From a virus: a stretch of DNA of 36,796 bases. Positions within the stretch are counted from its first letter, which is position 1, and every line of letters starts with the position of its first letter. The notes under the pieces were generated by a model. That model saw nothing but the letters and a program-made list of their open reading frames with translations. It was not told where the DNA came from and made no database searches. The stretch spans positions 1 to 36,796 of the IMG/VR virus record IMGVR_UViG_3300006921_000053; one strand, written 5' to 3'. The translations under genes were made by a program, and so were the position numbers. Positions 7,889 through 24,343 of this stretch are shown here, piece by piece.

Positions 7889-10800
7889 ATGCCTGAATCT
7901 ACAAATCTAAACGTAGCACCGTATTACGATGATTTCGATTCAACTGAGAATCATGTAAAGACATTATTTCGTCCTGGTTTTGCTATTCAAGCAAGAGAGT
8001 TAACAGGACTTCAGTCTACACTGCAAAATCAAATCGAAAAGGGATTCAGTCATGTCTTTAAAGATGGAACTGTAATAATCCCTGGTGCAACAACTTATTT
8101 AGGTGGTGCTGAGGCCCCAAGGTATATCAAAGTTCAAGGTAACTTTGGTGGCGAAACTGTTAATGTCTCGCAGTATGTAAATGAGGACAATCCCGTTACA
8201 CTGACTGGAGCCACGTCTGGTGTTACGTTTAGAGTGATTGCTGCAACTGAGGCAACGGAAACAGACCCGGCAACATTTTTTGGTGTTTATACTTCCAGCA
8301 ATCTTTCTGGGAGCAGAACTTTCACTGAAGATGTCACTACTATTTCTCGTAGCGCATTAGATGCTGCTGGTTTTGACTCATTCACTATTGGTGAAAACTT
8401 AAGTGCAGATGTAGCGGTGCAGCATGGTAGCACATCATATCAAGCAAATGTTCCTTCACTAATAACAGAGGCATCTGAAGTTCTAAGAACAACTAAATCT
8501 GCAAACACTGCTTCAACCACACCTGTAACTGGTAAATCTGTCATTGTAAAACAATCGGCTGGTGTATTTTTTGTTAGAGGTTATTTTGTTGATGTTGAAG
8601 ACCAAACACTTGTTGTAGAAAAGTATAACAACAATGCAAATGCAAGAGTTGGTTTTCAAGTTGTAGAAACGATTGTTACACCAGAATCAGACACGAGTTT
8701 GTCTGACAACGCGACTGGCACATCGAACATAAATGCGAAAGGTGCACATAGATTAGCTTTTACGCTCACTTTAACATCTAAAGAATTAAACTCTAAAGAT
8801 GATAAAGATTTTATTGAAATTCTCAGAGTAGAAGATGGTGTTCTTCAACATTTTAATCGTGACACTGAATATTCCATTCTTGAACAGACATTGGCACGTA
8901 GAACGTTTGATGAATCTGGTGATTATACTGTAAGACCTTTTACTTTTGAGATGAAAGAGTCAGTCAATGTTAGTGTTGGCGAAACCGATTTTACTGGTGT
9001 CTATACTTCTGGTGATACCACAAGAGATGGTAATAAAGCCTCAGATGATTTTATGGCATTGCAAGTATCGCCAGGTAAAGCATATATCAGAGGATATGAG
9101 ATAGAAAAAATTGCACCTACTCTTGTTGATGTTAAGAAAGGTAGAGATTTTAATACTATAAATGCGGGTGCGTCTCCTGCTGATTTGGGGAACTATCTCC
9201 AAGTTACAAATGTTTATGGCACACCGGATGTAACAGAGATTAGCGGTGAAACAGTTGGTTACAATGAATTGCAACTGTATGATACCAACATCTCAACGAG
9301 AGGTTCAGCAACAGGTATACAAATAGGTGTGGCTCGTGTAAGAACATATCAGTATGATTCTGGCACCGCTGGTGAAAACGATGCGACCTATCGACTGTAT
9401 CTGTTTGATATCAATGCTATCACGTCACTTGTTATGAGTGCTGATGTCAGTCCAACCATTTTATCTTCAAACTCTGGTGGCGGTCAACTAGTAACAGGTG
9501 TTACAAGTGGTGCCACTGGTTTGGTTATGGATTCAGGTCGTTCTGGTAACAATGTTGTTAACTTAGTTAATGTTGTTGGCACTTTTAGTTCGGGAGAAAA
9601 AGTAACAATAACAGATTCTTCTGAGTCTGATCAGATTATAGAGAGTTCAGGTAATGCTGACCTTACTATTAGTGACGTTATAATCCCTGACTTGAAAAAT
9701 GTTCGTTCAGTCTATATGCAAGACAATGGTGGCGATAGTGGTCAAGACTTTACTGCTGATGTTCAAACAACATTTGAAAGTGGAGGTTCGTCTCTCTTTG
9801 GTAGTCCAGAAGTTGGAACAACTCATAAAGAAGATGACCGTTATCAGTTGGAAGATGGTGGGACACTGGCTTTAGAAACTTTCACGGGCGGTGGTTCTCG
9901 TTCTTTTGCACCAGTTGCTAAACTTGTTGAGCCAGAGAAGAATATTAATCTCTTTAATCTAACTAAAACTCCTGTCAAGACGTTGTTAACAGAAACGAAT
10001 AGTGGTGTCTCTGATACACAATATACTTTCCGTCAGCAGTTCATTGCAACCGCAAGTTCAGCTGGTGCAATCACTTTATCTGCTGGTGGCGGCAACGAAA
10101 CATTCCTGGCACACAGTGAATCAGATTACACAATCTCTATTTTAACAGGCGGTGATGGTTCTGCCAAACAGGGTGATATTGTTAGCGCATCAACTGGATT
10201 TGCTGGTGGTAGCACATCACAGTTGACTATCACTAATCTTGGTGCGTTTGGTTCAGGTGGTGCAAAAGTTAAAGTTATGGCAACCTTGTTGAAGACTGCC
10301 GTAAGTCCAAAGACCAAGACAACGAGATTGATGAAACAACTCAAAGTGGACACCGGAACAACAGATGCATATGGCACTCGCCCAGGTGATAGAGAAATAT
10401 CTTTGGGTCGTGCTGATGCGTTTGCCTTGGTTGCTGTGTATGAGGCGACTGCCGCTTCTACTGATGCTGTTGCTCCTACGATTAGTTTTACAACACAAAC
10501 TGGCACATTCACAAGAGGTGAAAAAATCACTGGTAGTGTTAGTGGTTCAACTGCAAGAATTATCAATACAACAAGTCCAATGAGTGTTGTAATGACTGGC
10601 GCTGCCGGGTCTGCATTCTCAACTTCTGATATTATCACTGGTGCATCCTCTGGTGCAACTGCAACACTAACTGCTGTCACTCTTGGTGATAAGGTTATTA
10701 CAAGTGACTTTGCTTTTGATAACGGTCAAAGAGATAACTTTTACGATATCTCTAGAATCGTAAGACGTAGAGGTGCCGCGGCTCCTACAAACAGACTACT

Positions 10801-13800
10801 TGTAATCTATGATTATCTTGAACACGGCACTGGCGATGTGTTCACCGTGGATTCATATACTGATGAAGCAGATAGAATGGATTATGTTGATATTCCAAAA
10901 TATAAAGATACCAGACTACAAAATACTTTTGACTTCAGACCAACAGTGGCGAATGTCACTGGTGCAGGAACAGATCATACGGCTGTTGATGAGATTACCG
11001 GATTTTCATTTGGTATTATGAGTCGTTCTTTTACTGGCGCGGGTTCTTCTGCTAGTAAGTGTCCAAAACCAACTTCTTTGGTGCAAGCAGACTTTGAATA
11101 TTACTTACCTAAGAATGCAATTGTTGAAATGGCGTCTGATGGTAAGATTAGAGTTGTTGAAAGTGCATCTGATGAACAACCCAGATTCCCATCACAATCT
11201 GAAAATTCAATGAAGTTGGCCAGTATGCGTATTCCTGCTTATACATTTTCGGTTGACAATATTGTAATTACCAGAGAGAAACATCAACGGTTTACCATGA
11301 AAGATATTGGTAATCTTCAAACCCGTATTGGTAACCTTGAGTATTATACACACCTTTCTCTTTTGGAACGCCAAGCAGAGAGTTTTGAAATCACTGATGC
11401 GAACGGACTGAACAGATTTAAATCTGGTTTTGTTGTTGATGCTTTTCAGGGTCATCGTCTTGGTGATGTTGAACACAAAGACTATAAATGTTCTATTGAT
11501 ATGGAGAGAAATGAACTTCGGGCTCAAGGAACATATAAAAATGTTAGTTTCGTAGAGTTAAACGCGACTGATGCAGCCAGAGCCAATAATAATTATCAAG
11601 GAACAGGAGATGTATTTACCCTACCTTACACAGAGGTTGTTGCTATTGAACAACCGTATGCAACGCGAACTGAAAGAGTTACGCCTGTCCTTCTTTCAAA
11701 TTGGACTGGTCAAATAGCGTTGTCGCCCTCTGGTGACGACTGGTTTGAAACTGAAGTTGCACCGGCTCTGATTGTCAATGAAGAAGGAAACTTCAATTCT
11801 ATAGCCGCATCCGCTAATATAGGTACTGTTTGGAATGCCTGGGAAACACAGTGGAGCGGTTCTCAATCTTTCCTTCACGAAAATGCGCAGGTGAGTTTTC
11901 AAGATTCAATCGATGCTGGTTCACGAACAACTGGTCCAGTTAGAACTGGTGTCAGAACAGAAGTTGTTGAAAAAGTTGATCTAGAATCTAGAGGAACGAA
12001 AGTAATCTCAACCGCATTAATTCCATTTGTAAGAGCAAAAGATATTACTTTTGATGGATTTGATTTTCTACCAAATACACAGGTGTATCCTTTCTTTGAT
12101 GCACAGGCTGTAACCTCTTTCACCAGACCTTCGGCCGGGTTCTCAACAAATGACGCAAGCCTGGTTAATGGTGATGCGATTATAACAAGTCCCAGTGGTA
12201 GAGTCAAAGGAACCTTCTCTATACCTGATCCTAAAATTAGTGGTAATCCTCAGTTTAGAACAGGTCAAGTTTCCTTTAGATTAACTTCAAGCCCTACAAA
12301 CATAGTTTCTACTGACCCTGTTACTGCTGGTGAAACAAACTATAGTGCCGTTGGTCTACAACAAACTTTGCAAGAGACTGTTATTGCAACAAGAAATGCT
12401 GAGGTAAGGCGAACATCAGTTTCACAAGCTACTGAAATTACAGCTGAAACCGTCAACGACGGCGATTCACAAGCTGCCGACGACCCTCTTGCTCAAACTT
12501 TCTTGGTTGATGTGGACGGTGGTATGTTTGTCACGAGTGTGGATCTTTTCTTTGAAGCAAAGGATGATAATCTTCCTGTTACAGTAGAAGTTAGGGAAGT
12601 GCAGAATGGTTTTCCTGGCCCGAGAGTTATACCTTTTGGAAGAGTGGTTAAAGATTCTGATGATGTTGTTATTGATTCTTCTGCTCAGACAGCAACTAAC
12701 TTCAAATTTGAATCGCCAGTATATTTACAGTTTGGGTTGGAATACTGTGTTGCTGTTATTGCTAATGTTCCAACATACAAAGTTTGGATTGCACGAATGG
12801 GTGAGACAGAGGTTCAATCTACATTGGCACAGGCTCAAGTTGGTGGAACCGCTGATGCTGCACAAAATGTTTTGTTCTCAGACAGAACTGTTTCGGAACA
12901 ACCAGAGTTTGGTGTTCTATTCAAAGGTCATAACAACAGAACTTGGGCACCATCTTTGACTGAAGATTTGAAGATGAACATTTATCGGGCAGAATTCAGT
13001 TCATTGACTGGTACAGTTCCTCTGGTTAATGATAGCAATCCGGTTAAGACTCTTGAAAAGAATCCGTTGGAATTCTTGGATGGTAGTGCGGTAATCAAAG
13101 TGTTCCATCCAGATCATGGTATGTATTCTACTTCAAATAATGTGACTATCGCTAATGTGAAGTCTGAAATAACTACAACATTGTCTGCGGCGATAACTAC
13201 ATCTTCTACTACTATTGAACTGACTTCTGGTACAAACTTTGACGACACTAGCGGTGTCTATTCTAGAGATGCATCTAATGTGTACTTTATCAAAATTGAT
13301 GATGAGATTATTTCTTATACCTCAATCAGTACAAACACGATTAGTAGTGCAACCAGAGCCGTAGACTCAACGACTGCTGCTTCTCACGCAGAGGGCGCAA
13401 CAGTTGAGTTGTATATGTTGCATAAGATTCCGTTTACACAAATCAATAAGACACATACTGCGGTTGCAAACGTTGAGATTGACAGTTATACTGTTTCTTC
13501 AACTGCGACAGCTGTCATTGATGGTACATCAAGCACAAGGTCTAGAAATGGTGGTACGAATGCAACTGCCACGGAAAACATTTTGTATGATGTTGCCAAG
13601 TATCAAGTTGGTTTACTTGAACTTCCTGGCACAAGTGTGACAGCACAGAAACGGCCGTCAACAGCAACAAGTCCAAGTGGTTCGGAAACTTCTTTTACAA
13701 AGACCTCTGTTACTGATGCAATCAATGTTCCATTAAATGAGAATATATATTATAATGTTCCATATCTTGTGGCATCTGATATTAACCAAGACAATGAGAT

Positions 13801-14368
13801 GTCTTCTGTGAAATCTTTGTCGTTAGACCTTACCTTGAGGACAGTTTCAAATAACTTGTCTCCAGTTATTGATCTTCAAAGATTGTCTATGATTGCGATT
13901 GCAAATAGAATCAACAACATTGATTCTTCTTCAGATGTTTATCCAACATCTGAATATTTTGCTTCAACAGAACCAGACGGTGATAATAACGCTGCAATTT
14001 ATTGTACAAAACAGATAGAACTTGAACAGAAAGCAACTGCATTGAAAGTGCTTCATTCTGCAAACAGAGGCTCTGATGCAGAAATAAAAGTTATGTATAA
14101 GATTTTCAGAGAGGATGACGAGACAGACTTTAACGAAACAGGTTGGAGATTCTTTAATGATAATGGGTCACCAGATGTTTCTGTTGGTGCTTCTACTGGT
14201 ATAAATGATTTTCGTGAGTATGTTTATACTGCCGGTGTTACTGATGACGGTATTGGTACTGAACTGGATCCGTTTGTGTCATTTGCAATCAAGATTGTAA
14301 TGCAAGCAACTAATTCAACATCAGCACCTAGAATCAAAGACTTCAGAGCAATCGCATTGGCGACATGA
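7889..14368 (+). CDS. Very large virion structural protein with DUF4815-type N-terminus
   Basis: The protein has 2159 residues. Its N-terminus (NLNVAPYYDDFDSTENHVK, then LFRPGFAIQARELTGLQS, then LQNQIEKGFSHVFKDGTVI) is the hallmark of the DUF4815 family of large structural proteins in marine T4-like phages. Later parts hold SGATA microrepeats (GEKITGSVSGSTARI near residue 875, IITGASSGATATL near 915) and a central region with NLQTRIGNLEYYTHLSLLER resembling a helical connector. It directly follows gp8, where T4 has the baseplate and short-fibre genes 9-12. A baseplate-attached fibre or peripheral wedge role is therefore inferred. The start is fixed by abutting the gp8 stop, with GTGGAG about ten bases upstream. 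Confidence 0.8.
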   Translation: MPESTNLNVAPYYDDFDSTENHVKTLFRPGFAIQARELTGLQSTLQNQIEKGFSHVFKDGTVIIPGATTYLGGAEAPRYIKVQGNFGGETVNVSQYVNEDNPVTLTGATSGVTFRVIAATEATETDPATFFGVYTSSNLSGSRTFTEDVTTISRSALDAAGFDSFTIGENLSADVAVQHGSTSYQANVPSLITEASEVLRTTKSANTASTTPVTGKSVIVKQSAGVFFVRGYFVDVEDQTLVVEKYNNNANARVGFQVVETIVTPESDTSLSDNATGTSNINAKGAHRLAFTLTLTSKELNSKDDKDFIEILRVEDGVLQHFNRDTEYSILEQTLARRTFDESGDYTVRPFTFEMKESVNVSVGETDFTGVYTSGDTTRDGNKASDDFMALQVSPGKAYIRGYEIEKIAPTLVDVKKGRDFNTINAGASPADLGNYLQVTNVYGTPDVTEISGETVGYNELQLYDTNISTRGSATGIQIGVARVRTYQYDSGTAGENDATYRLYLFDINAITSLVMSADVSPTILSSNSGGGQLVTGVTSGATGLVMDSGRSGNNVVNLVNVVGTFSSGEKVTITDSSESDQIIESSGNADLTISDVIIPDLKNVRSVYMQDNGGDSGQDFTADVQTTFESGGSSLFGSPEVGTTHKEDDRYQLEDGGTLALETFTGGGSRSFAPVAKLVEPEKNINLFNLTKTPVKTLLTETNSGVSDTQYTFRQQFIATASSAGAITLSAGGGNETFLAHSESDYTISILTGGDGSAKQGDIVSASTGFAGGSTSQLTITNLGAFGSGGAKVKVMATLLKTAVSPKTKTTRLMKQLKVDTGTTDAYGTRPGDREISLGRADAFALVAVYEATAASTDAVAPTISFTTQTGTFTRGEKITGSVSGSTARIINTTSPMSVVMTGAAGSAFSTSDIITGASSGATATLTAVTLGDKVITSDFAFDNGQRDNFYDISRIVRRRGAAAPTNRLLVIYDYLEHGTGDVFTVDSYTDEADRMDYVDIPKYKDTRLQNTFDFRPTVANVTGAGTDHTAVDEITGFSFGIMSRSFTGAGSSASKCPKPTSLVQADFEYYLPKNAIVEMASDGKIRVVESASDEQPRFPSQSENSMKLASMRIPAYTFSVDNIVITREKHQRFTMKDIGNLQTRIGNLEYYTHLSLLERQAESFEITDANGLNRFKSGFVVDAFQGHRLGDVEHKDYKCSIDMERNELRAQGTYKNVSFVELNATDAARANNNYQGTGDVFTLPYTEVVAIEQPYATRTERVTPVLLSNWTGQIALSPSGDDWFETEVAPALIVNEEGNFNSIAASANIGTVWNAWETQWSGSQSFLHENAQVSFQDSIDAGSRTTGPVRTGVRTEVVEKVDLESRGTKVISTALIPFVRAKDITFDGFDFLPNTQVYPFFDAQAVTSFTRPSAGFSTNDASLVNGDAIITSPSGRVKGTFSIPDPKISGNPQFRTGQVSFRLTSSPTNIVSTDPVTAGETNYSAVGLQQTLQETVIATRNAEVRRTSVSQATEITAETVNDGDSQAADDPLAQTFLVDVDGGMFVTSVDLFFEAKDDNLPVTVEVREVQNGFPGPRVIPFGRVVKDSDDVVIDSSAQTATNFKFESPVYLQFGLEYCVAVIANVPTYKVWIARMGETEVQSTLAQAQVGGTADAAQNVLFSDRTVSEQPEFGVLFKGHNNRTWAPSLTEDLKMNIYRAEFSSLTGTVPLVNDSNPVKTLEKNPLEFLDGSAVIKVFHPDHGMYSTSNNVTIANVKSEITTTLSAAITTSSTTIELTSGTNFDDTSGVYSRDASNVYFIKIDDEIISYTSISTNTISSATRAVDSTTAASHAEGATVELYMLHKIPFTQINKTHTAVANVEIDSYTVSSTATAVIDGTSSTRSRNGGTNATATENILYDVAKYQVGLLELPGTSVTAQKRPSTATSPSGSETSFTKTSVTDAINVPLNENIYYNVPYLVASDINQDNEMSSVKSLSLDLTLRTVSNNLSPVIDLQRLSMIAIANRINNIDSSSDVYPTSEYFASTEPDGDNNAAIYCTKQIELEQKATALKVLHSANRGSDAEIKVMYKIFREDDETDFNETGWRFFNDNGSPDVSVGASTGINDFREYVYTAGVTDDGIGTELDPFVSFAIKIVMQATNSTSAPRIKDFRAIALAT

Positions 14369-14604: not shown

Positions 14605-15516
14605 ATGGCTACAGTAACAGCAGCATCAATCTCAGTATCTGATAGTTTAGAAAGATTCAGACAAGAGTTTAATACTTTACGTTCAGACGTTAGCAATATT
14701 ACGTCTAGTGATATAACTATTAACAATGAATCAAACAACCGTATTCTTACTTCTGTGAGTACAAATACTTTTAACGCAGAAGCAGGTTTGACCTATGATG
14801 GTTCAACTTTTGCTGTTAGTGGAGCAATGACCGTAAGTGGTCTTACAACTCTTAGTGGTAACCTTGTTATACCTAATGCCGGTAACATTGGTTCTGCTGG
14901 TGATACAGATGCTATTGCAATTGCCTCTGATGGTGTCGTTACCATGAATCAAATACCAGTTTTCAGTGCCGGTATTAACGTTTCTGGTGGTAGTATCGCG
15001 GGAACACTTTCTACGGCCGCACAAGGTAACATAACTTCACTTGGTACATTGACAACACTGACTGTTGATAATATTGTTATCAATGGGACAAATATCGGAC
15101 ATACTTCAGATACAGATGCTATCGCTATTGGTTCAGATGGTGACGTTACTCTAACACAAGACCTAGAACTCCAACATGATGGTGCTATACTTTCCTTTGG
15201 TGCAAATGATGAGATATCACTGACTCATAACCATAATGTTGGATTGAAGATGACTTCAACAGCATATGCTCCTTTTGCTCGTAGAGGTGAGGATGTGTTC
15301 ATTGTTCTAGATGGTACAGATGCTTCTAGTTCAGATGCTGGTGATAATGTAATCATGAACGCAAGTGATGGTAGTAGCACTGATGATGGAGATGATATTA
15401 TTGGAGAGGATGAGGTGTTTCTACATAGTGGTATGCAAAGAAACGTTATAGAAATTCGTGATTCTGGTGGTGGTTTGCTTAACTCTGTTGCAGGATTTGC
15501 GCCGGGAGCTATATAA
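14605..15516 (+). CDS. Fibre-like structural protein with LDGTD repeats
   Basis: The 303-residue protein begins with a short helical segment (SVSDSLERFRQEFNTLRSDV). It continues with beta repeats typical of phage fibres, including TLSTAAQGNITSLGTLTTLT and two related units, GSAGDTDAIAIASDGVVTMN and GHTSDTDAIAIGSDGDVTLT. Near residue 235 it switches to VLDGTDASSSDAGDNVIMN and DGSSTDDGDDII, the repeat also found in gp7 and gp18. The C-terminus is Gly-rich and hydrophobic (GGGLLNSVAGFAPGAI). A baseplate or tail appendage role is inferred from composition and position. An AGG about ten bases upstream is only a weak ribosome binding site. Confidence 0.7.
   Translation: MATVTAASISVSDSLERFRQEFNTLRSDVSNITSSDITINNESNNRILTSVSTNTFNAEAGLTYDGSTFAVSGAMTVSGLTTLSGNLVIPNAGNIGSAGDTDAIAIASDGVVTMNQIPVFSAGINVSGGSIAGTLSTAAQGNITSLGTLTTLTVDNIVINGTNIGHTSDTDAIAIGSDGDVTLTQDLELQHDGAILSFGANDEISLTHNHNVGLKMTSTAYAPFARRGEDVFIVLDGTDASSSDAGDNVIMNASDGSSTDDGDDIIGEDEVFLHSGMQRNVIEIRDSGGGLLNSVAGFAPGAI
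15301..15411 (+). repeat. LDGTD/DAGD repeat in the fibre-like protein
   Basis: Two adjacent units read LDGTDASSSDAGDNVIMN and SDGSSTDDGDDIIGED. The bases gatggtacagatgc and gatgctggtgataat recur almost unchanged in the gp7 repeats around 5120-5160. Confidence 0.8.
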
Positions 15517-16475
15517 TGGCAGTTAGGTCACCTTTATATTTTAGTGGGGGAAACTTAATTGAATTGTCTTCGGGCGAAATCAACGAGTGGACACAGAAAG
15601 CTATTTACCAATATAGTTTAAATCCTACTGCTGTTCTTACTGTTGTTTCCAGTAGTGGAGCGAATATTGATGCTATCAGTGACACCAGATTGGAAGCAGG
15701 CGCAACTTCACAAAGTTCAACTGCTTTTGTTGCAGAGGCTAGCACTGCTGAACCAGGCACTGTGACAGTCTCCTATGACAAAATCAATCTTGCCTATACT
15801 TCAACTGGTGACATCTCTAATACTTCTGATGCGGGGACAACCTTTCCTGTATATTATGATACCAGTGCCGGTGCTATACGAGCTATGAATTTGACAGATT
15901 TTTTGGACACTTTTATATATCCGGCAGTTGACCTTTTGATTGTTGCTTCTGAATCCTCTGATACTGCTGGAACATATACAATAACTTCATCAGCGTCTGC
16001 GGCAGGTAACTACACTAAAGTCTCTGCTTCTGATGTTGCTGTTTTTACAGACACAAGAGCAGACACATCGGCGTACTCGGCCGCAGGTATTCCTGAAACC
16101 CTTGATCAACCAACTACGGTTACTAACTACTATCTTCACCGTAGAAATGGTTCTGATCTGACTCCAACGAGAACACCAGTTTCTATTGATGGTTCTAATA
16201 ATATTCAAGTATTTTCCACGAGCACTCTTGCTGACCTACTAGGTGATTGGTTGAGATACACTGCGGCTCATGATACTAATGGTAACAAGATTACATATTC
16301 CGTTGGAACAAGCGGTAGTGGTAATGCAAGAGGAACTAACATGCTTGATACAAAACTTAATGGTTCTGGTAATTATCAAACATTGCAATCTGGTGATGAC
16401 TATCGTTCACAAGAATTTCCAAATGGTTCTCCGGCCACAATCAGCACCTACAAACTTTTTATAAATAAGACATAG
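15516..16475 (+). CDS. Virion structural protein, marine T4-like type, function unknown
   Basis: The protein has 319 residues and starts MAVRSPLYFSGGNLIELSSG. A segment reading QKAIYQYSLNPTAVLTVV follows. This kind of opening recurs in structural proteins of marine T4-like phages. A central part contains FPVYYDTSAGAIRAMNLTDF and a VTNYYLHRRNGSDLTP stretch. There is no signal peptide or membrane segment. Its start codon overlaps the preceding stop by one base (taATG) behind a GGGAG site, so it is translationally coupled to the fibre-like gene. It is probably a component of the same tail appendage. No enzymatic motif is visible. Confidence 0.65.
   Translation: MAVRSPLYFSGGNLIELSSGEINEWTQKAIYQYSLNPTAVLTVVSSSGANIDAISDTRLEAGATSQSSTAFVAEASTAEPGTVTVSYDKINLAYTSTGDISNTSDAGTTFPVYYDTSAGAIRAMNLTDFLDTFIYPAVDLLIVASESSDTAGTYTITSSASAAGNYTKVSASDVAVFTDTRADTSAYSAAGIPETLDQPTTVTNYYLHRRNGSDLTPTRTPVSIDGSNNIQVFSTSTLADLLGDWLRYTAAHDTNGNKITYSVGTSGSGNARGTNMLDTKLNGSGNYQTLQSGDDYRSQEFPNGSPATISTYKLFINKT
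16460..16467 (+). promoter_or_regulatory. T4-type late promoter before the accessory block
   Basis: An exact TATAAATA lies inside the 3' end of the preceding gene and ends 19 bases before the ATG at 16486. A start about 6 bases downstream would put AGGAG (16474-16478) at the very beginning of the transcript. It is the only clear late promoter seen before the cassette that ends at 24340, so it may drive the whole group. Confidence 0.75.
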
Positions 16476-16485
16476 GAGATAAACT

Positions 16486-17055
16486 ATGGCTAAAGAAACT
16501 GCTGCATATACTGCGAATGGTGAACCAAAATATCCTTTTGTTGGAAAGATAGTTGAGGCTTATTATACAAATGCGGATTTGACTGAGATTGACATCATTC
16601 ATAATTATGATGTTCCTGATGATAGTGCACATAAAAATGGTGGTAAAGAAGGCACGACAGTATTCTCGGTTTCAGTTGATGAAACGGATGAACGTTTTCT
16701 AGCACTGCTTCAAGAATTTTCTTATGAGTCACTTGATGAATGCACAAGAAATAGAAACGAAGCATTTCGTGAGCAATTCAGACAAGCATTCCAAGATTAT
16801 GCACAAAGAAATCAAGTGGAAATTTTTGAGGAAGTTATTGTCAAAAAAGAAGTTGAAATCGAAGATGGGCCTTTGGATCTCATATTTGATTATGATTCTG
16901 AAAATGAAGTGCATAAAGATATTCTCTTTAGACTAAAACTAAAAATGTTTGAACAGAAAGTCGTTCAAACAAGTAAAAAGAAAAAGGCAAAAACTGATAT
17001 TCGTAAAGCAGAAACATTAGGAGATGCGCTTAAAGCATATTGCGAATTTCTTTAA
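16486..17055 (+). CDS. Conserved-looking acidic protein of unknown function
   Basis: The 189-residue protein has a beta-rich beginning (PFVGKIVEAYYTNADLTEID). A helical middle follows, with an ECTRNRNEAFREQFRQAF segment, then alternating acidic and basic runs (EEVIVKKEVEIEDGPLDLIF) and a Lys-rich segment KKKKAK near residue 165. No catalytic motif is recognised. An AGGAG ribosome binding site and the TATAAATA just upstream make it a late gene. It lies between the appendage genes and the enzyme cassette. It could be a tail assembly or chaperone-like factor, but nothing in the sequence proves this. Confidence 0.55.
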   Translation: MAKETAAYTANGEPKYPFVGKIVEAYYTNADLTEIDIIHNYDVPDDSAHKNGGKEGTTVFSVSVDETDERFLALLQEFSYESLDECTRNRNEAFREQFRQAFQDYAQRNQVEIFEEVIVKKEVEIEDGPLDLIFDYDSENEVHKDILFRLKLKMFEQKVVQTSKKKKAKTDIRKAETLGDALKAYCEFL

Positions 17056-17072
17056 TCTAAAAAAAATATATT

Positions 17073-18401
17073 ATGAAAGTTTTGGGAATCTCAGAAGGAT
17101 TTCATGATGCTGCAATATGCATAATTGAAAACCAAGAAATACTTTTTGCTTCTCATTCAGAACGCTATAGCAAAATTAAGGGTGATAGGTGGATTTATCC
17201 AGACATGGTGTTAGGTTGTCAACCGGATATAACTGCGTATTACGAAAAACCCTTTCTTAAAAATCTAAGACGACTTTACTCTGGCCAGAAATGGCATAAA
17301 CCCAGAACTAAGTATGATGTTTGTTTTGGACACCATGAATCTCACGCAGCTGCAGGATATTACACTGCACCATTCAATCATTGCAATATACTAGTTGTTG
17401 ATGCGATAGGTGAATGGGATACCATCTCTATTTGGGAAGGTAAGAATAACAAACTCAAAAAAATTGAGTCATGGAAATATCCTTATTCTCTTGGCCTTCT
17501 CTATTCTGCAATCACAAAACGTATAGGATTAAAACCCAACGAAGATGAATATATCACGATGGGTATGGCTGCATTTGGTGAACCTGTATACGATCTTGCC
17601 CCACTTTTAGAAAGAAACAATCATTTGGGTGTGAGTGAAATATTCCCAACAGCAAGAGATGAAGATCTTGCTGCATCTGTTCAGTTAGTATATGAAACTG
17701 AATTGTTGAAACTTGTAGAGAAATGCTCGCACGAAAATCTCATTCTTATGGGTGGATGTGTTTTAAACTGTGTGGCAAACAGTAAAATCAAAAATAAAAA
17801 TATCTGGATCATGCCTTCGCCTGGTGATGCAGGAAGTGCTTTGGGTGCAGCTGCTCTAGTAAATAAAGAGAAACTTAATTGGAAAAATCCATATTTAGGA
17901 TATGCTCTTTCAAAGAAAATTCATATATCTAAAGTTATTGATGAGTTGCTTAAAAATAAAATATGCGGTGTTGCCCATAGTCGTGCTGAGTTTGGCCCAA
18001 GAGCATTAGGTAATCGTTCTCTGTTTGGTGACCCTCGTTATGATATCAAAGACACGGTAAATAAAATCAAACAAAGACAAAAGTTTCGTCCCTTTGCGCC
18101 AGCAATCTTAGAAGAATACGCAAAAGAATATTTTGAAGGCCCGATGAATGAGTATATGCAATTTGTCTCAACTGCAAAACATGACTACAGTTCTGTTACA
18201 CATGTTGATGGTACTGCAAGAGTTCAGGTTGTAAAAAAGAATTGTGGTTCTATTATTAGAACTATATTAGAAGAGTGGTATGATAAAACTGGTTGTCCCA
18301 TGTTATTAAACACTTCATTAAATATAAAAGGACAACCAATAGTTAATACGTGGTCTGATGCTCAAGATTTTTCAAGGAAATATAATGTTCGGGTCTTCTA
18401 G
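17073..18401 (+). CDS. NodU/CmcH-family O-carbamoyltransferase
   Basis: Members of this family transfer the carbamoyl group of carbamoyl phosphate to a hydroxyl group through a carbamoyl-adenylate. The 442-residue protein shows the two-domain signature. It has HHESHAA (residues 87-93, metal-binding His), DAIGEWDT (110-117), GGCVLNC (227-233), PGDAGSALGA (250-259), EFGPRALGNRS (306-316), DPR (320-322), RPFAPA (339-344) and NTSLNIKGQPIV near 415. All expected core motifs are present, so it should be active. The acceptor is unknown: sugar, modified protein side chain and hydroxylated base are all possible. No good ribosome binding site is seen, so coupling to the upstream gene is likely. Confidence 0.9.
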   Translation: MKVLGISEGFHDAAICIIENQEILFASHSERYSKIKGDRWIYPDMVLGCQPDITAYYEKPFLKNLRRLYSGQKWHKPRTKYDVCFGHHESHAAAGYYTAPFNHCNILVVDAIGEWDTISIWEGKNNKLKKIESWKYPYSLGLLYSAITKRIGLKPNEDEYITMGMAAFGEPVYDLAPLLERNNHLGVSEIFPTARDEDLAASVQLVYETELLKLVEKCSHENLILMGGCVLNCVANSKIKNKNIWIMPSPGDAGSALGAAALVNKEKLNWKNPYLGYALSKKIHISKVIDELLKNKICGVAHSRAEFGPRALGNRSLFGDPRYDIKDTVNKIKQRQKFRPFAPAILEEYAKEYFEGPMNEYMQFVSTAKHDYSSVTHVDGTARVQVVKKNCGSIIRTILEEWYDKTGCPMLLNTSLNIKGQPIVNTWSDAQDFSRKYNVRVF

Positions 18402-19206
18402 GAAAAAACTAATTGCTATAGGGTGTAGTTATACAAACTATGCACGTCATAGTACACACTGGCCAGAATTTCTTGCCGAACACTTAGACATGGAAGTTGT
18501 AAATCTCGGCGGTCCTGGCCAGGGCAACAGTTACATGTTTTCTATATTACAAGATGTTTTAATGTTAAACAAAATTATCAATAGTTGGCCAAAACGAACT
18601 GAGTTTAACATTAAAAACGAAGATATTGGTTTAGTGGTTATTATGTGGTCTGAGTTTCAACGAATGGATTTTGAATCAAAACGATTTTGGCTTGCTTTTC
18701 ATCCACACAGAAATAATTGGAAACATGAACAATATCCGATGGAAAAGGCTGGTCGTGATGTTATGGTTCAATGGAACAATGTGTTTAGTGCGACTTTGCT
18801 TTCTATGAGACATTTTCATTTGTCGCAATTACTCTTAAAAGATATTCCATATATATTTGTACAAGGCACTAAACCAACACATTCTTATTCTACAGATTTA
18901 ATTCCAGAACAGTATGTTAATAGAAGTTCGTATAACAGAGATGGTGATGTTTCCTTTGAAAGAATTTCTTCAAAAGCAATGATGAATAGTAATTATTTTG
19001 ATTTGATTGATGATAAAAAATTTTTAGGATGGCCAATACATAGAGAGATAGGTGGATTCTGTATAGACGATATTCTAAACAAATTGGATCCTGACCAAAG
19101 AAAATACAGAGTAGGTAATAATGATACGCACCCCAATAGAGAAGGTCACAAAGTAATTGCAAGTAAATTGTATGAAGAGTATAAAAAGATTTATACTAAG
19201 AATTAA
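18385..19206 (+). CDS. SGNH/GDSL-type hydrolase or esterase-like protein
   Basis: Block I of the SGNH fold is visible as IAIGCSYT (nucleophile Ser15), with a following GGPGQGNS (42-49) carrying the oxyanion Gly and Asn. The C-terminal DTHPNREGH (247-255) supplies the catalytic Asp and His. The family removes or transfers acyl groups on glycans and other esters. I chose the ATG at 18385, giving 273 residues, because AAGGAAA lies just before it and block I then sits near the N-terminus as usual. An in-frame ATG at 18358 would add nine residues. The gene overlaps the carbamoyltransferase by 17 bases. Its substrate is unknown; acyl editing of a decoration is plausible. Confidence 0.75.
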   Translation: MFGSSRKKLIAIGCSYTNYARHSTHWPEFLAEHLDMEVVNLGGPGQGNSYMFSILQDVLMLNKIINSWPKRTEFNIKNEDIGLVVIMWSEFQRMDFESKRFWLAFHPHRNNWKHEQYPMEKAGRDVMVQWNNVFSATLLSMRHFHLSQLLLKDIPYIFVQGTKPTHSYSTDLIPEQYVNRSSYNRDGDVSFERISSKAMMNSNYFDLIDDKKFLGWPIHREIGGFCIDDILNKLDPDQRKYRVGNNDTHPNREGHKVIASKLYEEYKKIYTKN

Positions 19207-19232
19207 ATTTTTCTTTTCTCGTTTTCGTAGAT

Positions 19233-20024
19233 ATGATCACGATAAAAGAAGAAATAAATTTATATATGAGAGATATGATGATTGAAAATACTATACTATG
19301 TGTTAAGTGGGGTGACAAATACGATGATGAATATGTGCACAAGTTGAAAAAACAATGCATGGAAAATTGCTCTGTTCCATTTAACTTCTACTGTCTTACT
19401 GATAAGAAAACAAAATCCTATGATATAACACTTCCTACAAAATGGGATCCCTACTATGATGAAAATCGTGGTTTCTTTTGGGCTTATCGTAAATGTTATA
19501 TGCTCAAGCTGAATGAAAGCATCGATGGTGATTTTATTGGTCTTGAGGGTAATAAATTTTTGTTTCTAGATCTTGATGTTATTATTCATCAAGACTTAAA
19601 ATATTTCTTTGACTTGCCTATGGATAAACCATATATTGTTCGTGGTTGGTGGAATGATATCGGTACAGTAAAACGTAACTTTTCAAAACACAAATCTACA
19701 GCTGTCAATTCTTCTGTAATTCGATGGGATCGTGGTCAATTGAAAAAGGTATACAACGAAATCAACAAGAATGCAAAGTTGGTATTTTTTACCTATCCTA
19801 GTATGGACAACTATATCAATCATCGTTGGTATAACATATGGGATGAGGATGAGGGTTTCTTTAGAGCATTTCCAAAGGGTGACATTTATTCTTGGTATAA
19901 AGGAAACACATTTCCTGATGATATGGAAACAAGAAAATTAAGAGAAGATCATAAAATTTGTTTGTTCAACAATAGCAACTTCGGTGAAGGTATCAATGAC
20001 GATGAGATAAAAGAGTTATGGTAG
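19233..20024 (+). CDS. DxD glycosyltransferase-like protein (GT-A fold)
   Basis: The protein begins with a GT-A-like strand (NTILCVKWGDKYDDEYV) and has FLFLDLDVIIHQDL, in which DLD (residues 113-115) is the metal and nucleotide-sugar binding DxD. Beforehand come FWAYRKCYML and later VNSSVIRWDRG, all seen in family 8/32-like transferases. It would transfer a sugar from an activated donor; the acceptor is unknown. ATGs at 19266, 19275 and 19278 are possible starts, and residues before MIENT look dispensable. It lies between the SGNH and methyltransferase-like genes, overlapping the latter by 7 bases. Confidence 0.75.
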   Translation: MITIKEEINLYMRDMMIENTILCVKWGDKYDDEYVHKLKKQCMENCSVPFNFYCLTDKKTKSYDITLPTKWDPYYDENRGFFWAYRKCYMLKLNESIDGDFIGLEGNKFLFLDLDVIIHQDLKYFFDLPMDKPYIVRGWWNDIGTVKRNFSKHKSTAVNSSVIRWDRGQLKKVYNEINKNAKLVFFTYPSMDNYINHRWYNIWDEDEGFFRAFPKGDIYSWYKGNTFPDDMETRKLREDHKICLFNNSNFGEGINDDEIKELW

Positions 20025-20674
20025 ACTATCTAAGATTTACACCAGAACTGTGTTATGATTGGAAACAAGCCGTAGTTGATGTGGAAAGATATTATCCACA
20101 TCAAATGAAACGCACATTAGATGCATCAATACCATCTCAATTAGAAAGTAAACTGTGGGTTGTTGATGAACTGAAAAAAATAGAAGACTGTTTTGATTTA
20201 CAACCAAATATTGCTTTGATAGGTGGGTGGTTTGCAAATTACCTAACTCCTTTATTGATAGATAATTTGAATGCTAGTAAAGTGGTCAATCACGAAATAG
20301 ACAATGATGCAAAAGATATTAGTTATAAGTATAATAAAAGATATAAGGAGACAGGACAGTATCAATGTCTTATCAAAGATGCTATGATGAAAGAACTAGA
20401 TGAAATCTTTGATATCGTTATTAATACATCTTGCGAACATATGTTTCCTATGAAAAGATTTGTTAAAATGAATAAACAAACATTACCTTTTAATGGGGAA
20501 CAAAACAGTCCTTTATATGTTTTACAATCAACCAATAATGATCAATATGATGATCATATAAACTGCGTATCCTCACCAGAAGAATTGGCAGAGCAAGCTG
20601 GTATTGTTCCAGAATATATGGGAAGTCTAACCTTATCAAGTGGTATGAAGAGATTTATGGTTATCGGTCGATGA
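20018..20674 (+). CDS. Class I SAM-methyltransferase-like protein
   Basis: The 218-residue protein has a Rossmann pattern. A hydrophobic strand ending in a Gly pair reads NIALIGGWFANYLTPLL (residues 64-80). An acidic residue ends strand two in VVNHEID (89-95), and FDIVINTSCEHM (131-142) stands where methyltransferases have the post-motif strand. The glycine loop is shorter than usual (GGW rather than GxGxG), so SAM binding is likely but not certain. The substrate is unknown. The start codon overlaps the glycosyltransferase stop by 7 bases and the stop overlaps the next ATG, giving tight coupling. Confidence 0.6.
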   Translation: MVDYLRFTPELCYDWKQAVVDVERYYPHQMKRTLDASIPSQLESKLWVVDELKKIEDCFDLQPNIALIGGWFANYLTPLLIDNLNASKVVNHEIDNDAKDISYKYNKRYKETGQYQCLIKDAMMKELDEIFDIVINTSCEHMFPMKRFVKMNKQTLPFNGEQNSPLYVLQSTNNDQYDDHINCVSSPEELAEQAGIVPEYMGSLTLSSGMKRFMVIGR

Positions 20675-21363
20675 CTCTTATAGAGTGGTGTAGAAAAAAT
20701 GATATCTGGTATCTAAAGATTGATTTAGATATACCTGAAGCTTGCATCAAGGAAGCGCAGAATGTTTATGATGAGGGATTCTTTGTGCCACATCGTTTAT
20801 CGGATGGTGATGAATGGTGGTCATCTGCTATGCATAGTTTTGTACATGAATGTGAGTATGATACTTTTTCTGGTTGGCGTCATACAATGAATCCAAATGG
20901 TCATGGTTATACTGAAGATAGTGTTAAGTGGGGATGGACTGAAGTAGCTGAGATCGCACCAGAAATGAAGAGGTGGCTAGAAGACTTTCCACACAAACAC
21001 TACCGGCGTTGTAGGTTTATGTTGATAAAGCCAGGCGGTAGTATAACTGCACATCATGACGCTGGGGATGAAAGAATAAACGAGGGAAGACAGAGAAATA
21101 TTTCAGCGGCAATCAATCTAGCAATCTATCAACCAGATAATTGTTATTTGAGAAGAGTTGATACAAAGGAGGAACTACCATTTGAAAATTGCACTGGTTT
21201 TTGGTTTGACAATGGAGTGACACATGAAGCTTTGAATAGTTCAGATGAAAATCGTTTTCATTTTATAATTCATGGTGGTTCAAATAAGGAAAGAAAAATA
21301 TTGATGAGAAAATCTTTGGTCAAACAGTTTGGTTCTGATGTATTAAGAGAGATAGATGATTAA
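20671..21363 (+). CDS. Aspartyl/asparaginyl beta-hydroxylase-like Fe(II)/2-oxoglutarate oxygenase
   Basis: The double-stranded beta-helix core is readable. RCRFMLIKPGGSITAHHDAG gives the H-x-D iron ligands (His128 and Asp130, with a further His129). GFWFDNGVTHEALNSS gives the distal His185, and ENRFHFIIHG gives Arg195 for 2-oxoglutarate. Known relatives hydroxylate the beta-carbon of Asp or Asn in proteins, or small molecules. The protein has 230 residues. It is coupled by ATGA overlap to the methyltransferase-like gene, and its stop overlaps the next gene by 8 bases. Activity is expected because all ligands are present; the substrate is unknown. Confidence 0.8.
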   Translation: MTLIEWCRKNDIWYLKIDLDIPEACIKEAQNVYDEGFFVPHRLSDGDEWWSSAMHSFVHECEYDTFSGWRHTMNPNGHGYTEDSVKWGWTEVAEIAPEMKRWLEDFPHKHYRRCRFMLIKPGGSITAHHDAGDERINEGRQRNISAAINLAIYQPDNCYLRRVDTKEELPFENCTGFWFDNGVTHEALNSSDENRFHFIIHGGSNKERKILMRKSLVKQFGSDVLREIDD

Positions 21364-22708
21364 GAATTTTGAACAGTTCAGAAAACTCTGGACAAAAGAA
21401 ACTTCTGATATAAAAATCAAAAACAAAACAAAACATCTTGTTTTTATTGTGATGTATCCTGACAATATAGAATGGGATTTCGGTGTAGAGAAACAAGTAC
21501 AAACAACGTGTGTGCAAACTTCTGGTGGTCTTACTGGAGCAGGAACCGGCCATAATCAAATACTTTGTTATACAAGTGAAATATTTGATGTTCTTAATGA
21601 TTGTGATGAATATACTCATGCTATGGTTGTGACTGCTGGTATGACATTTTCTATGACTTCATCTAAAACTTCAATTCAAAGTTTTTATAACTTTTCTGAA
21701 GATGAAACAAATTGGTGTAGAGGACACATAATTGCAAAACCGAATAAACCCGCATATTTACATCATCAACATGTAGAAATAAATCTTGATGTGTGGAGAG
21801 AATTAGGACGGCCTTTTATTTTTGAAAGGTGGAAAAATTACGAGAGATCAGATGAAAACTATCACGATGATTACACTCCGCATTGGATAACACCAAAGGA
21901 TAGACCAACTATTGTAAATTTTGATGATAATGATAGAAGAGTTAAATCATTCTCATATAACAATATGGAAGCTAGAACAAAAATTCAAAATAGAAGTTGG
22001 AATATTCTTAAAGATAGAAAAGAAGGATGGCGTAATAAACTAGATGATGATAATTATTTTAAAACAACTTGCGATAGACTAAACAGTTCATTTTATGTTG
22101 AAAACACTGAGAGTTTAGGTGCATATGTAGAGACTTTACCCAATGAAAAATTTGATGTTATTTTTTCACCGACAGCTGGTTATGTAACTGAGGTCTTAGT
22201 TGAAAAATTGAACTTTGATGGAGAAGTAATATTTTATGACTATGCTCAAAACAATATTACAATCAAAGAAAATATTGTTGAAATGAATATGTCTATGGAA
22301 GAAATAAAAAAATATTCTGGATACATGGACCAACCGTTTAACTTTACAAGAAACATCAATCAGGGGTCACAAGGTGTTCTTTTGCGTAAGAGAGCAGAGA
22401 CATATGGTGACTTTGAGTATCTTAGAGATCTTCAGAAAAAGATGAGAGATACATATGATATAGAATATTGGCTGATGGACTTGATAAACCCTGATTACAA
22501 AAAACTCAAAAATAAAATTGAGGGTAAAAGAGTTTTCTTCAACACTAGCAATATCTTTAGTTATCATATTTCACATTCAGTGTATACCTTAGACATGTTG
22601 GTGCGTTCTTTCAACAGATTGCAAGAAACACTTAACTTTTCAGAATATTATTTGTTCAGAGGAACTAGACCAACTAAACAACACTCACAATATTTTAGTA
22701 AGAAATAA
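21356..22708 (+). CDS. Two-part unknown protein of the enzyme cassette
   Basis: I do not recognise this 450-residue protein. The N-terminal ~170 residues have strands and a Gly-rich loop (TKHLVFIVMYPDNIEWDF, SGGLTGAGTGHNQI, THAMVVTAGMTFSM) that look like an alpha/beta enzyme. A His-rich patch (YLHHQHVEINLDVW) follows, then a charged linker. The second part has FDVIFSPTAGYVTEVLVEKL and GEVIFYDYAQ, resembling a Rossmann nucleotide or SAM fold. It is AT-rich: one 60-base line (21961) has 15 G+C. Overlap with the hydroxylase gene puts it in the same operon. A bifunctional transferase is possible, but this is inference from fold-like patterns only. Confidence 0.55.
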   Translation: MIKNFEQFRKLWTKETSDIKIKNKTKHLVFIVMYPDNIEWDFGVEKQVQTTCVQTSGGLTGAGTGHNQILCYTSEIFDVLNDCDEYTHAMVVTAGMTFSMTSSKTSIQSFYNFSEDETNWCRGHIIAKPNKPAYLHHQHVEINLDVWRELGRPFIFERWKNYERSDENYHDDYTPHWITPKDRPTIVNFDDNDRRVKSFSYNNMEARTKIQNRSWNILKDRKEGWRNKLDDDNYFKTTCDRLNSSFYVENTESLGAYVETLPNEKFDVIFSPTAGYVTEVLVEKLNFDGEVIFYDYAQNNITIKENIVEMNMSMEEIKKYSGYMDQPFNFTRNINQGSQGVLLRKRAETYGDFEYLRDLQKKMRDTYDIEYWLMDLINPDYKKLKNKIEGKRVFFNTSNIFSYHISHSVYTLDMLVRSFNRLQETLNFSEYYLFRGTRPTKQHSQYFSKK

Positions 22709-22717
22709 TCTCTTATT

Positions 22718-23173
22718 ATGCGTTTAGACTTAGATAAAATAAAGGAAGAACTAAGATTTTTGCCGTCATTTGATGATCAAATTTCTTTACAAGGAGTTGA
22801 GAATAATCCAGACCCTTTTTTTGGTTGTGGTACAACCAGATCCATAGATCCCTACAAAGAAACAGATTTTAGTGAACCAAATTTTAATTTACCTTATATA
22901 AATTCTATAATAGAAAAATTAGATATGTATAGAACTAGAGTGTTCGTTTTAAAATCAAAAACATGTTATTCAATACATAGTGATCTATCCAAAAGAATTC
23001 ACATACCAGTAATTACAAATAAAAATTGCTGGTTGATCGTCAATCAAGAAATTATGCATCTTCCTGCTGATGGTAGATACTATAAAATTGATACTACACA
23101 AAAACATACGGCATTAAATGGATCATGGGAGGATAGAATACACATAGTGGGATCCGTGGAATGTTATAGATAA
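22718..23173 (+). CDS. Small Fe(II)/2-oxoglutarate hydroxylase-like protein
   Basis: The 151-residue protein has the compact cupin core of an Asp/Asn hydroxylase. CYSIHSDLSKRIHIPV gives His87-x-Asp89. NKNCWLIVNQEIMHLPADG supplies the central strands. TTQKHTALNGS gives His130, and DRIHIVG gives Arg140. It is shorter than the other hydroxylase in the cassette and differs greatly in sequence, so it probably acts on a different substrate or site. One 60-base line (22921) has 15 G+C. The stop overlaps the next start by one base (taATG). Confidence 0.7.
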   Translation: MRLDLDKIKEELRFLPSFDDQISLQGVENNPDPFFGCGTTRSIDPYKETDFSEPNFNLPYINSIIEKLDMYRTRVFVLKSKTCYSIHSDLSKRIHIPVITNKNCWLIVNQEIMHLPADGRYYKIDTTQKHTALNGSWEDRIHIVGSVECYR

Positions 23174-23874
23174 TGAAGATATTTGCAGTTAGAATAGGCA
23201 CCAAATATGGCATTGAGTATGAAGAATATTTGGAAGATAAATTGTCCAAGTATGAGATTATTTGGATAAGAGAGTCATACGATCCTAAAGTGACATTGCA
23301 ATGGAATAAGATGTGGGCGATGCAAACAGACATCGATGAACCTGTTTGTGTTATGGATATTGATGTTCTGCTTGTAAATGACTATGAAAAGATATTTGAA
23401 TATCCTGTAAAACCTGGCCAGTTTGTTGCAATGCCTGGATGGTGGAGAGACACAAGAAAAAATAACTATGTCATAAATGGTGGATTTTTCAAATACTATC
23501 CAAAAGATTGCCGATACATTTTTGACAAGTTTATGTCAGACATACATGGATGGCAAAGACATTACATAGATAACGGAACCACATCTGGGCCTGTGAATGG
23601 AGAACAATATTTTGTTGAGGATTCTGTTAAAGAAAGATTAGAACTTATTACCTTGCCAGAGAGTTGGTTTACACGATGGGTTGTAAATGAAGATATCAAT
23701 TATGGTAAGAGTATGACTAAATGGCAAATTCAAATAACAAGTAAATATAGAAAGTTAACGGGTAACGATTACATTTATCTAGGTGGAGAGTTTCATCCTG
23801 ATATAAAATTTGTTCATTTCACACACAGAAATAACAAACCACACGAATGGAAAGATTATAAGAACCATGTCTGA
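23173..23874 (+). CDS. Second DxD glycosyltransferase-like protein
   Basis: The 233-residue protein has a GT-A layout: an N-terminal strand KIFAVRIGTKYG, then EPVCVMDIDVLLVNDY with DID (residues 62-64) as the donor-binding DxD. A YVINGGFFKYYP segment (99-110) is the conserved post-DxD loop of family 8-like enzymes. The C-terminal part, IKFVHFTHRNNKPHEW, carries the His residues that often complete metal binding. Its sequence differs from the other glycosyltransferase, so two distinct sugars or linkages may be added. It overlaps the acetyltransferase gene by 8 bases. Confidence 0.75.
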   Translation: MKIFAVRIGTKYGIEYEEYLEDKLSKYEIIWIRESYDPKVTLQWNKMWAMQTDIDEPVCVMDIDVLLVNDYEKIFEYPVKPGQFVAMPGWWRDTRKNNYVINGGFFKYYPKDCRYIFDKFMSDIHGWQRHYIDNGTTSGPVNGEQYFVEDSVKERLELITLPESWFTRWVVNEDINYGKSMTKWQIQITSKYRKLTGNDYIYLGGEFHPDIKFVHFTHRNNKPHEWKDYKNHV

Positions 23875-24340
23875 GGTAAAAAGAATATCATGGGAGGAAA
23901 TTAAACATATATGGGAAACTCAGTTGTGGCCAAACAAAACTGAAGGCATCAAGCCATACAACAAATGGACATGGAGACATCCAAGTAGACACTTTGGTTT
24001 TTCATATGACATGGATGTGTCTCCTGCTTTCTTTGGAATACACGAGAATGATAAACTTGTAGCAGTTAATAGTTGTTTTATGAGTAACGATTGGAAAGAT
24101 TCAGTATATTTTAGATCTAGAGGTTTGTGGACAGATCCAGAATATCGTAGAAGAGGTTATGCTTCTTCAATATTACTTGAAACTATAAAGTATGCAAAGG
24201 AAAATGGTGGAACTTGGTTATGGACAGTGCCTAGAAAAACTTCATTGGTTGCATATGAAAGTGTAGGTTTAGAACAATGGTCGGCTTGGATGGATGATTT
24301 AGAATTTGGTCCAAATTGTATCGCAACTAAATACTTATAA
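23867..24340 (+). CDS. GNAT-family N-acetyltransferase
   Basis: The acetyl-CoA binding motif is clear as LWTDPEYRRRGYASSILLET (R-x-x-G-x-A at residues 94-99), followed by SLVAYESVGLEQW typical of the GNAT motif B. I set the start at 23867 (157 residues), which overlaps the glycosyltransferase stop by 8 bases. The longer frame from 23810 would place 19 extra residues inside the previous gene. GNAT enzymes acetylate amino groups of sugars, proteins or small molecules; here an amino sugar made or attached by the neighbouring transferases is a reasonable guess. It is the last gene before the neck genes. Confidence 0.8.
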   Translation: MSEVKRISWEEIKHIWETQLWPNKTEGIKPYNKWTWRHPSRHFGFSYDMDVSPAFFGIHENDKLVAVNSCFMSNDWKDSVYFRSRGLWTDPEYRRRGYASSILLETIKYAKENGGTWLWTVPRKTSLVAYESVGLEQWSAWMDDLEFGPNCIATKYL

Positions 24341-24343
24341 ATA
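24336..24343 (+). promoter_or_regulatory. T4-type late promoter before gp13
   Basis: An exact TATAAATA overlaps the stop codon of the acetyltransferase and ends 23 bases before the gp13 ATG. The resulting leader of about 17 bases contains GGAG at 24354-24357. It separates transcription of the neck and packaging genes from the cassette. Confidence 0.75.

Follow-up and report, generated by a model that had tools for sequence, protein, structure and literature searches.

A five-gene tailoring-enzyme core conserved beside tail genes in marine T4-like phages

Introduction

What do nine enzyme genes packed among the tail and neck genes of a marine phage make together, and on which acceptor? We addressed this question in the 36,796-nucleotide IMG/VR record IMGVR_UViG_3300006921_000053 (positions 1-36,796; hereafter the window), a 36.8-kb part of the genome of a T4-like marine myovirus whose nearest portal proteins are those of Methylophilales phage Melnitz (68%) and Pelagibacter phage Mosig (61%). 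Nine codirectional, tightly packed open reading frames (ORFs), P1 to P9, lie between upstream tail/baseplate genes and the neck gene gp13 (at 24366), which is followed by gp14 (at 25185), gp15, gp16, gp17, gp18 and gp20. An original prediction had described this layout and proposed a single late pathway that decorates the virion. The layout was confirmed, with the starts of P2 and P9 corrected (Table 1); six of the eight junctions then overlap by 1-17 bases, much as described, and the other two are gaps of 9 and 26 bases. Our analysis indicates that the cassette probably builds a sugar with further decorations, carried either by a tail protein of the virus or by the host surface.

Results

Five cassette genes form a fixed core

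To place the cassette among its relatives, IMG/VR was scanned with P6, P1, P8, the unannotated upstream gene s319 and a P6 profile, followed by profile searches across all loci; relative loci and contigs compared with the window carry L-numbers. Locus counts derive from the best 80 matches per scan and describe the nearest relatives of each query, so the figures depend on the scan used. Among 73 distinct P6 loci, co-occurrence was counted only where enough flank (5 kb) was available: P3 and P4 were each present in 41/41, P5 in 40/41 and P8 in 55/55. The order of these genes is kept in 41-55 distinct loci, with P6 protein identity down to about 32-45%. P3, P4, P5, P6 and P8 therefore constitute a fixed five-gene core, and the set is conserved and inherited as a cassette in many marine T4-like (pelagimyophage-type) viruses. 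P8 alone returned 327 IMG/VR matches. Purifying selection was evident throughout, the ratio of nonsynonymous to synonymous substitution rates (dN/dS) being 0.03-0.12 for P3-P6 and P8 and 0.2-0.5 for P1, P2, P7 and P9.

A nucleotide search in named phages returned only 5% cover (phage C48C1), and a literature search found no paper on the P3-P4-P5-P6-P8 core. The arrangement P3-P4-P5-P6-P8-P9-gp13-gp14 also occurs on a 10.7-kb contig assigned to a Flavobacteriales metagenome-assembled genome (MAG; L246, CAJWSQ010000087), a case of phage sequence that was binned with bacterial contigs.

The remaining genes are optional or lie outside the block

Co-inheritance, which the original prediction had named as a check on the nine genes, thus holds for the core, and a single nine-gene unit was rejected. 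P1 and P2 occur together in 18/39 loci with the cassette in direct orientation and are missing in the close relatives L171 and L172, where window position 17084 is joined to 19253. In other T4-like phages the same pair sits between recombination/replication genes (SbcC, SbcD, clamp loader), which marks it as a mobile pair of its own; two such carbamoyltransferase-SGNH pairs amid DNA recombination/replication genes are at L069:10001-12083 and L072:10001-12074. P7 is occasional (8/39 direct loci). P9 is found in 21/39 and stays where P1-P8 are absent.

The limits of the presence/absence block are set by a natural empty site: L173, L174, L175 and L196 join the s189 stop (s189 being the gene that follows s319) straight to the P9 ATG. 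This junction fixes the start of P9 and places P9 outside the block. At the cassette site, relatives insert genes for radical S-adenosylmethionine (SAM) enzymes, a further 2-oxoglutarate (2OG) oxygenase, PP-loop-like proteins or transporters, and a twitch-type radical-SAM family is present in 55/118 of the relatives' cassettes. The transporter-like genes, judged by eye to encode TRAP/TTT-type binding proteins and membrane parts, lie in the same hot spot at L041:11244-12185 and L081:16393-18943.

Enzyme families and catalytic motifs

Most enzyme labels of the original prediction stood up to Pfam searches, motif conservation and structure prediction. P5 matches the Asp/Arg hydroxylase family PF05118 (E 1e-8), and its HxD...H iron triad (H128, D130, H185) and 2OG-binding R195 are invariant in an alignment of 21 sequences and also in bacterial relatives. 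P7 belongs to the same family (E 2e-7), which also holds lipid (lipid A) and free amino-acid hydroxylases. A Pfam search found no match for P3 or P8; both Asp residues of their DxD motif are invariant, in 26 aligned relatives of P3 and 12 of P8. Sequence similarity of the two proteins to GT8/glycogenin is weak (E 0.03-0.7), and we treat them as putative glycosyltransferases of GT-A/GT8-like type. The AlphaFold2 (AF2) model of P4 (predicted local distance difference test, pLDDT, 85) superposes on 4qdk with a Z score of 15 over 172 residues (root-mean-square deviation 3.0); as modelled, P4 is a class I methyltransferase.

P6 had been left as an unknown 450-residue protein. Its AF2 model (pLDDT 83) comprises a GT-A-like part (residues about 22-243) and a class I methyltransferase-like part (about 218-450). 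In a whole-protein structure search, the N-terminal part matched LARGE1 (Z 8.9) and GlyE (Z 8.5), and the C-terminal part matched 6ulo and 8khq (Z 10.4). Full-length structural homologues are uncharacterised proteins of uncultured phages (TM-score 0.64-0.71). P6 is accordingly a predicted GT-A-like and methyltransferase fusion. Sequence kinship of P6 with P8 or P4 was also considered, and a profile comparison gave nothing.

Among the other genes, P1 contains Carbam_trans_N (E 8e-40) and Carbam_trans_C (E 7e-48) and matches phrog_1601 (E 3e-82); phmmer retrieved the carbamoyltransferase 7xb6, GdmN and TobZ, and NCBIfam returned only NodU, with a low score. The SGNH match of P2 is weak (Pfam E 0.0025), and its block I in relatives is mostly GCS, not GDS. 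P9 is a Pfam GNAT match (E 1e-8).

Late promoters and linkage to s319 and s189

The late promoter reported at 16460 is an exact T4-type TATAAATA, and a further exact site precedes gp13 (Table 1). Among relatives, TATAAATA stands before gp13 in 49/58 distinct upstream regions (about -28 to -30) and before s189 in 15/65 (-25 to -28), each against a background of 0.85%. The s189 promoter is conserved in either placement, overlapping the last bases of s319 or lying past the s319 stop. Ahead of the cassette genes the motif is nearly absent, with 0 occurrences before P1, P5, P6 and P9 in the relatives' upstream regions. This placement supports a late transcript running from s319/s189 through the cassette, whose genes are probably co-transcribed. 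The clear gp13 late promoter in relatives occurs in a group where published work had none: the pelagimyophage study could not find late promoters there (PMC7029224).

The genes s319 and s189 are the constant neighbours of the cassette. Across 56 informative distinct s319 loci, s189, P4 and P8 were all present in 50; of the other six, two contigs end before P8, two are empty sites and two (L203, L235) are without s189, P4 and P8. The cassette is direct in 39 loci; in 11, as in Mosig, it lies on the opposite strand beside s319-s189 and its proteins are diverged (25-35% identity). In the inverted loci gp13 is not in the sequenced flank, and in Mosig it is about 33 kb away. Since the association survives inversion without a nearby gp13, the cassette is linked to s319/s189, not to the neck genes.

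s319 has 512 IMG/VR matches, a conserved [DN]DYR[SA]QE motif and a homologue in Mosig (52%; QOI69061), where s189 is QOI69059; neither s319 nor s189 had a match in Pfam, PHROG or PDB. We consider s319 a candidate substrate or host-recognition structural protein. Three markers of cassette status did not hold up. Loss of an acceptor Tyr in s319 (Y296F) is confined to the L173-L175 lineage, a single event, while cassette-minus L196, L203 and L235 keep Tyr; the search pattern used for this comparison favoured Tyr. Tail-fibre tip type failed as a predictor, as cassette-plus L007, L018 and L182 also differ in tip, and DG[TS]D repeats, considered as a hydroxylation target, showed no linkage to the cassette. 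Cassette-minus L173, L174 and L175 carry a different tail-fibre tip together with a chaperone-like ORF (MPTKHYRDTSGNYIGSF...) before s319.

P5 and P6 are adjacent or fused outside typical phage loci

Homologues of P5 and P6 overlap in a Halobacteriovoraceae MAG contig (L247), and in a Bacteriovoracaceae MAG contig (L248:7644-9689) they form a single 681-aa protein, P6-like first and P5-like last; both MAGs are of predatory bacteria. The L248 neighbours are four radical-SAM genes and an S8-type protease, and the region may represent a gene cluster for peptide modification in these bacteria. Phage contig L011 has P6 divided between two genes, one for a methyltransferase and one glycosyltransferase-like, and both come after P5. 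This recurrent adjacency or fusion indicates that hydroxylation and the P6 reactions belong together. All three loci carry radical-SAM genes of the twitch/SPASM type, enzymes that mostly modify peptides; it is this family that recurs in the 55/118 cassettes of relatives.

Table 1. Positions of the cassette genes, their upstream partners and the late promoters in the window
Feature	Coordinates	Strand	Description
s319	15516..16475	+	319 aa, unannotated; between tail-fibre genes and cassette; constant cassette partner
Late promoter TATAAATA	16460..16467	+	Exact T4-type; 26 bases before s189; overlaps s319 end
s189	16486..17055	+	189 aa; always beside s319; first gene of the probable late transcript into the cassette
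Block P1-P8	17056..23866	+	Presence/absence block, 6.8 kb; empty in L173, L174, L175, L196
P1	17073..18401	+	TobZ/NodU-type O-carbamoyltransferase; optional pair with P2
P2	18385..19206	+	SGNH/GDSL-like hydrolase; most likely start 18385, corrected from 18358
P3	19233..20024	+	Putative GT-A/GT8-like glycosyltransferase, invariant DxD; core
P4	20018..20674	+	Predicted class I SAM-dependent methyltransferase fold; family motif INTSCEHM (alignment); core
P5	20671..21363	+	Asp/Asn beta-hydroxylase-type Fe(II)/2OG oxygenase, PF05118; core
P6	21356..22708	+	450 aa; predicted bifunctional, GT-A-like N-terminal and class I methyltransferase-like C-terminal; core
P7	22718..23173	+	Second PF05118 oxygenase; occasional
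P8	23173..23874	+	Putative GT-A/GT8-like glycosyltransferase with DxD; core, most constant gene
P9	23867..24340	+	GNAT acetyltransferase; start corrected from 23810; found mainly in nearest clade
Late promoter TATAAATA	24336..24343	+	Exact; just before gp13; closes cassette unit

Discussion

A proposed tailoring pathway and its acceptor

These observations give good support to a late pathway of hydroxylation, glycosylation and methylation. In the scheme that we propose, P5 would hydroxylate an amino-acid side chain; P6, through its GT-A-like half, together with P3 and P8 would place a short sugar on the new hydroxyl and lengthen it; and methylation would fall to P4 and to the methyltransferase half of P6. 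Carbamoylation by P1 and acyl trimming by P2 may be an optional add-on, as may the contributions of P7 and of the radical-SAM enzymes in relatives, and optional carbamoyl, acyl and acetyl changes would follow the core steps. The most likely acceptor is a phage tail or adhesin protein produced in the same late period, and s319, s189 or the neighbouring tail fibre s303 would be the ones to consider first. The evidence places gene identities and folds at family level; the reaction order, the sugar and the protein acceptor are inferred.

A hydropathy scan found no membrane-spanning stretch in P1-P9 (19-residue maximum 1.12), so all are expected to be cytoplasmic and thus to share a compartment with newly made virion proteins. 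This location favours a tail protein as acceptor, as do the late timing and the persistence of the s319/s189 link after inversion. A virion-protein target is thus favoured and unproven, and the complete reading, in which P1-P8 are a late tailoring cassette acting most likely on a phage tail or adhesin protein, is our leading but tentative account, with a chance that we put a little below even. Several observations weigh against it. In the GT-A half of P6 no DxD can be recognised, and even the best structural matches of this half are modest, with Z about 9. The lineages that lack the block (L173-L175, L196) retain s319 and s189, so neither needs modification. P1-P2 lie among replication genes in other phages, so position alone cannot tell the target; and in L247 the P5-P6 pair lies a few kb from polysaccharide-type genes and a carbamoyltransferase.

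That last neighbourhood fits the main competitor of a tail-protein acceptor, late remodelling of the host surface polysaccharide (O-chain or capsule) that would exclude competitor phages or free progeny, and which we regard as on the unlikely side yet a serious contender. O-chain modification has been argued for the same island, with its GT8 enzymes and radical-SAM cassettes (PMC7029224). A virion target had originally been deduced from timing and position, and both are compatible with this proposal too. O-antigen tailoring typically involves carbamoyl, acetyl, methyl and SGNH functions. PF05118, moreover, includes lipid A hydroxylases. However, the cassette has no membrane protein, flippase or lipid-carrier glycosyltransferase, its late promoters start transcription together with structural genes, and its linkage to s319/s189 holds even after inversion. 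Strict linkage to a tail-region gene likewise disfavours a diffusible small molecule or modified peptide of natural-product type, such as a competitor inhibitor or a metal-binding compound. Radical-SAM, PP-loop-like, AMP-ligase-like and oxygenase genes do gather in relatives and in L011/L248, and the nearest solved relatives of P1 (GdmN, novobiocin carbamoyltransferase, TobZ) make antibiotics; yet the window cassette holds no carrier protein, synthetase, precursor peptide or exporter, and we judge this product improbable.

Two further accounts concern the cassette as a whole. Hypervariability of this region has been described in related phages (PMC7029224), and P1-P2, P7, P9 and the transporter genes of L041 and L081 come and go, as expected if the nine genes were unrelated cargo piled up in a recombination hot spot without a common pathway. 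For the core this is contradicted by the shared company and order of its five genes and by P5-P6 adjacency or fusion outside phages; it is possible for P1, P2, P7 and P9, and as an explanation of all nine genes it is distinctly improbable. Hypermodification of phage DNA or of the nucleotide pool would draw on similar chemistry, known pathways including 2OG oxygenase, glycosyltransferase, carbamoyl and methyl functions. It is nonetheless very improbable here: expression is late, with neck and tail genes, PF05118 differs from the TET/JBP oxygenase family, and no nucleotide-modifying synthase or kinase and no DNA-acting oxygenase was seen among the annotated genes of the 36.8-kb fragment, a partial genome.

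If a virion protein is the target, a very abundant group of ocean phages would encode a pathway for equipping its tail proteins with complex sugars, adding a layer to host recognition and defence evasion that has been little explored. If it is the host surface, the cassette would supply a concrete gene set for proposed superinfection exclusion. With the five-gene core and the natural cassette-plus/minus pairs (the window or L172 against L173-L175), the question can be put to the test.

Relation to known systems

The host recognition cluster (HRC) of pelagimyophages is a hypervariable island bounded by VrlC and the neck gene gp14 that carries GT8 enzymes and radical-SAM cassettes, and O-chain (host lipopolysaccharide, LPS) modification has been proposed for its glycosyltransferases (PMC7029224). 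Pelagimyophages are phages of SAR11. The region that holds the window cassette is an HRC in this sense of position and content: it lies between gp14 and a VrlC homologue (ORF 7889-14368; 39% identity to Mosig VrlC over 556 aa at the N-terminus and 41% over 310 aa at the C-terminus), with tail fibres and glycosyltransferases. The published account, in contrast, treats the genes as O-chain or auxiliary metabolic gene cargo, without a fixed core, a link to s319, late promoters or the P6 fusion (PMC7029224). Mosig (EXVC030M, MT647606) itself resembles the window in adjoining s319, s189, P4 (30%), a P8-like glycosyltransferase (25%) and a P1-like carbamoyltransferase (30%). It differs in its inverted orientation, in the absence of a P5/P6 homologue beside them and in many more enzymes, including MoaA-type radical-SAM enzymes, a desaturase and nitroreductases. 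At 40-72 kb of MT647606, beside the P4/P8 homologues, lie a fatty-acid-desaturase-like gene, nitroreductases, MoaA-type radical-SAM genes, heme oxygenase, PcyA and ferrochelatase.

Beyond this island, LH3 (PLOD3), with mimivirus L230 as viral analogue, hydroxylates a side chain and then glycosylates the new hydroxyl. LH3 combines hydroxylase and glycosyltransferase in one protein, as does the L248 fusion, and was the top Foldseek match of P6, a weak one (TM-score about 0.2) that is no test of membership. Unlike LH3, the present system has a PF05118-type, not a PLOD-type, hydroxylase, an extra methyltransferase and no demonstrated collagen substrate. P1 shares both Pfam domains (Carbam_trans_N and _C) and the conserved C-terminal motifs with TobZ, NodU and GdmN, and is shorter, at 442 aa. 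LPS serotype-conversion (Gtr) clusters contain a membrane flippase, a lipid-carrier glycosyltransferase and a membrane glycosyltransferase, whereas hydropathy in P1-P9 peaks at no more than 1.12. Phage-coded glycosyltransferases proposed to decorate capsid or tail proteins offer a parallel, and putative capsid-glycosylating enzymes are mentioned for mycobacteriophages (PMC11256854). The comparison is by description, and that source mentions no hydroxylase, carbamoyltransferase or methyltransferase cassette.

The cassette is now better defined than in the original prediction: a known hypervariable island houses a five-gene core to which optional parts are added, and with the P5-P6 fusion a new enzyme pair is delimited. 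It is possible, if rather doubtful, that this amounts to a new post-translational decoration system for tail proteins, in which P5 and the P6 fusion are extended by two glycosyltransferases and a methyltransferase and shared with predatory bacteria, where the enzymes are fused and accompanied by radical-SAM genes.

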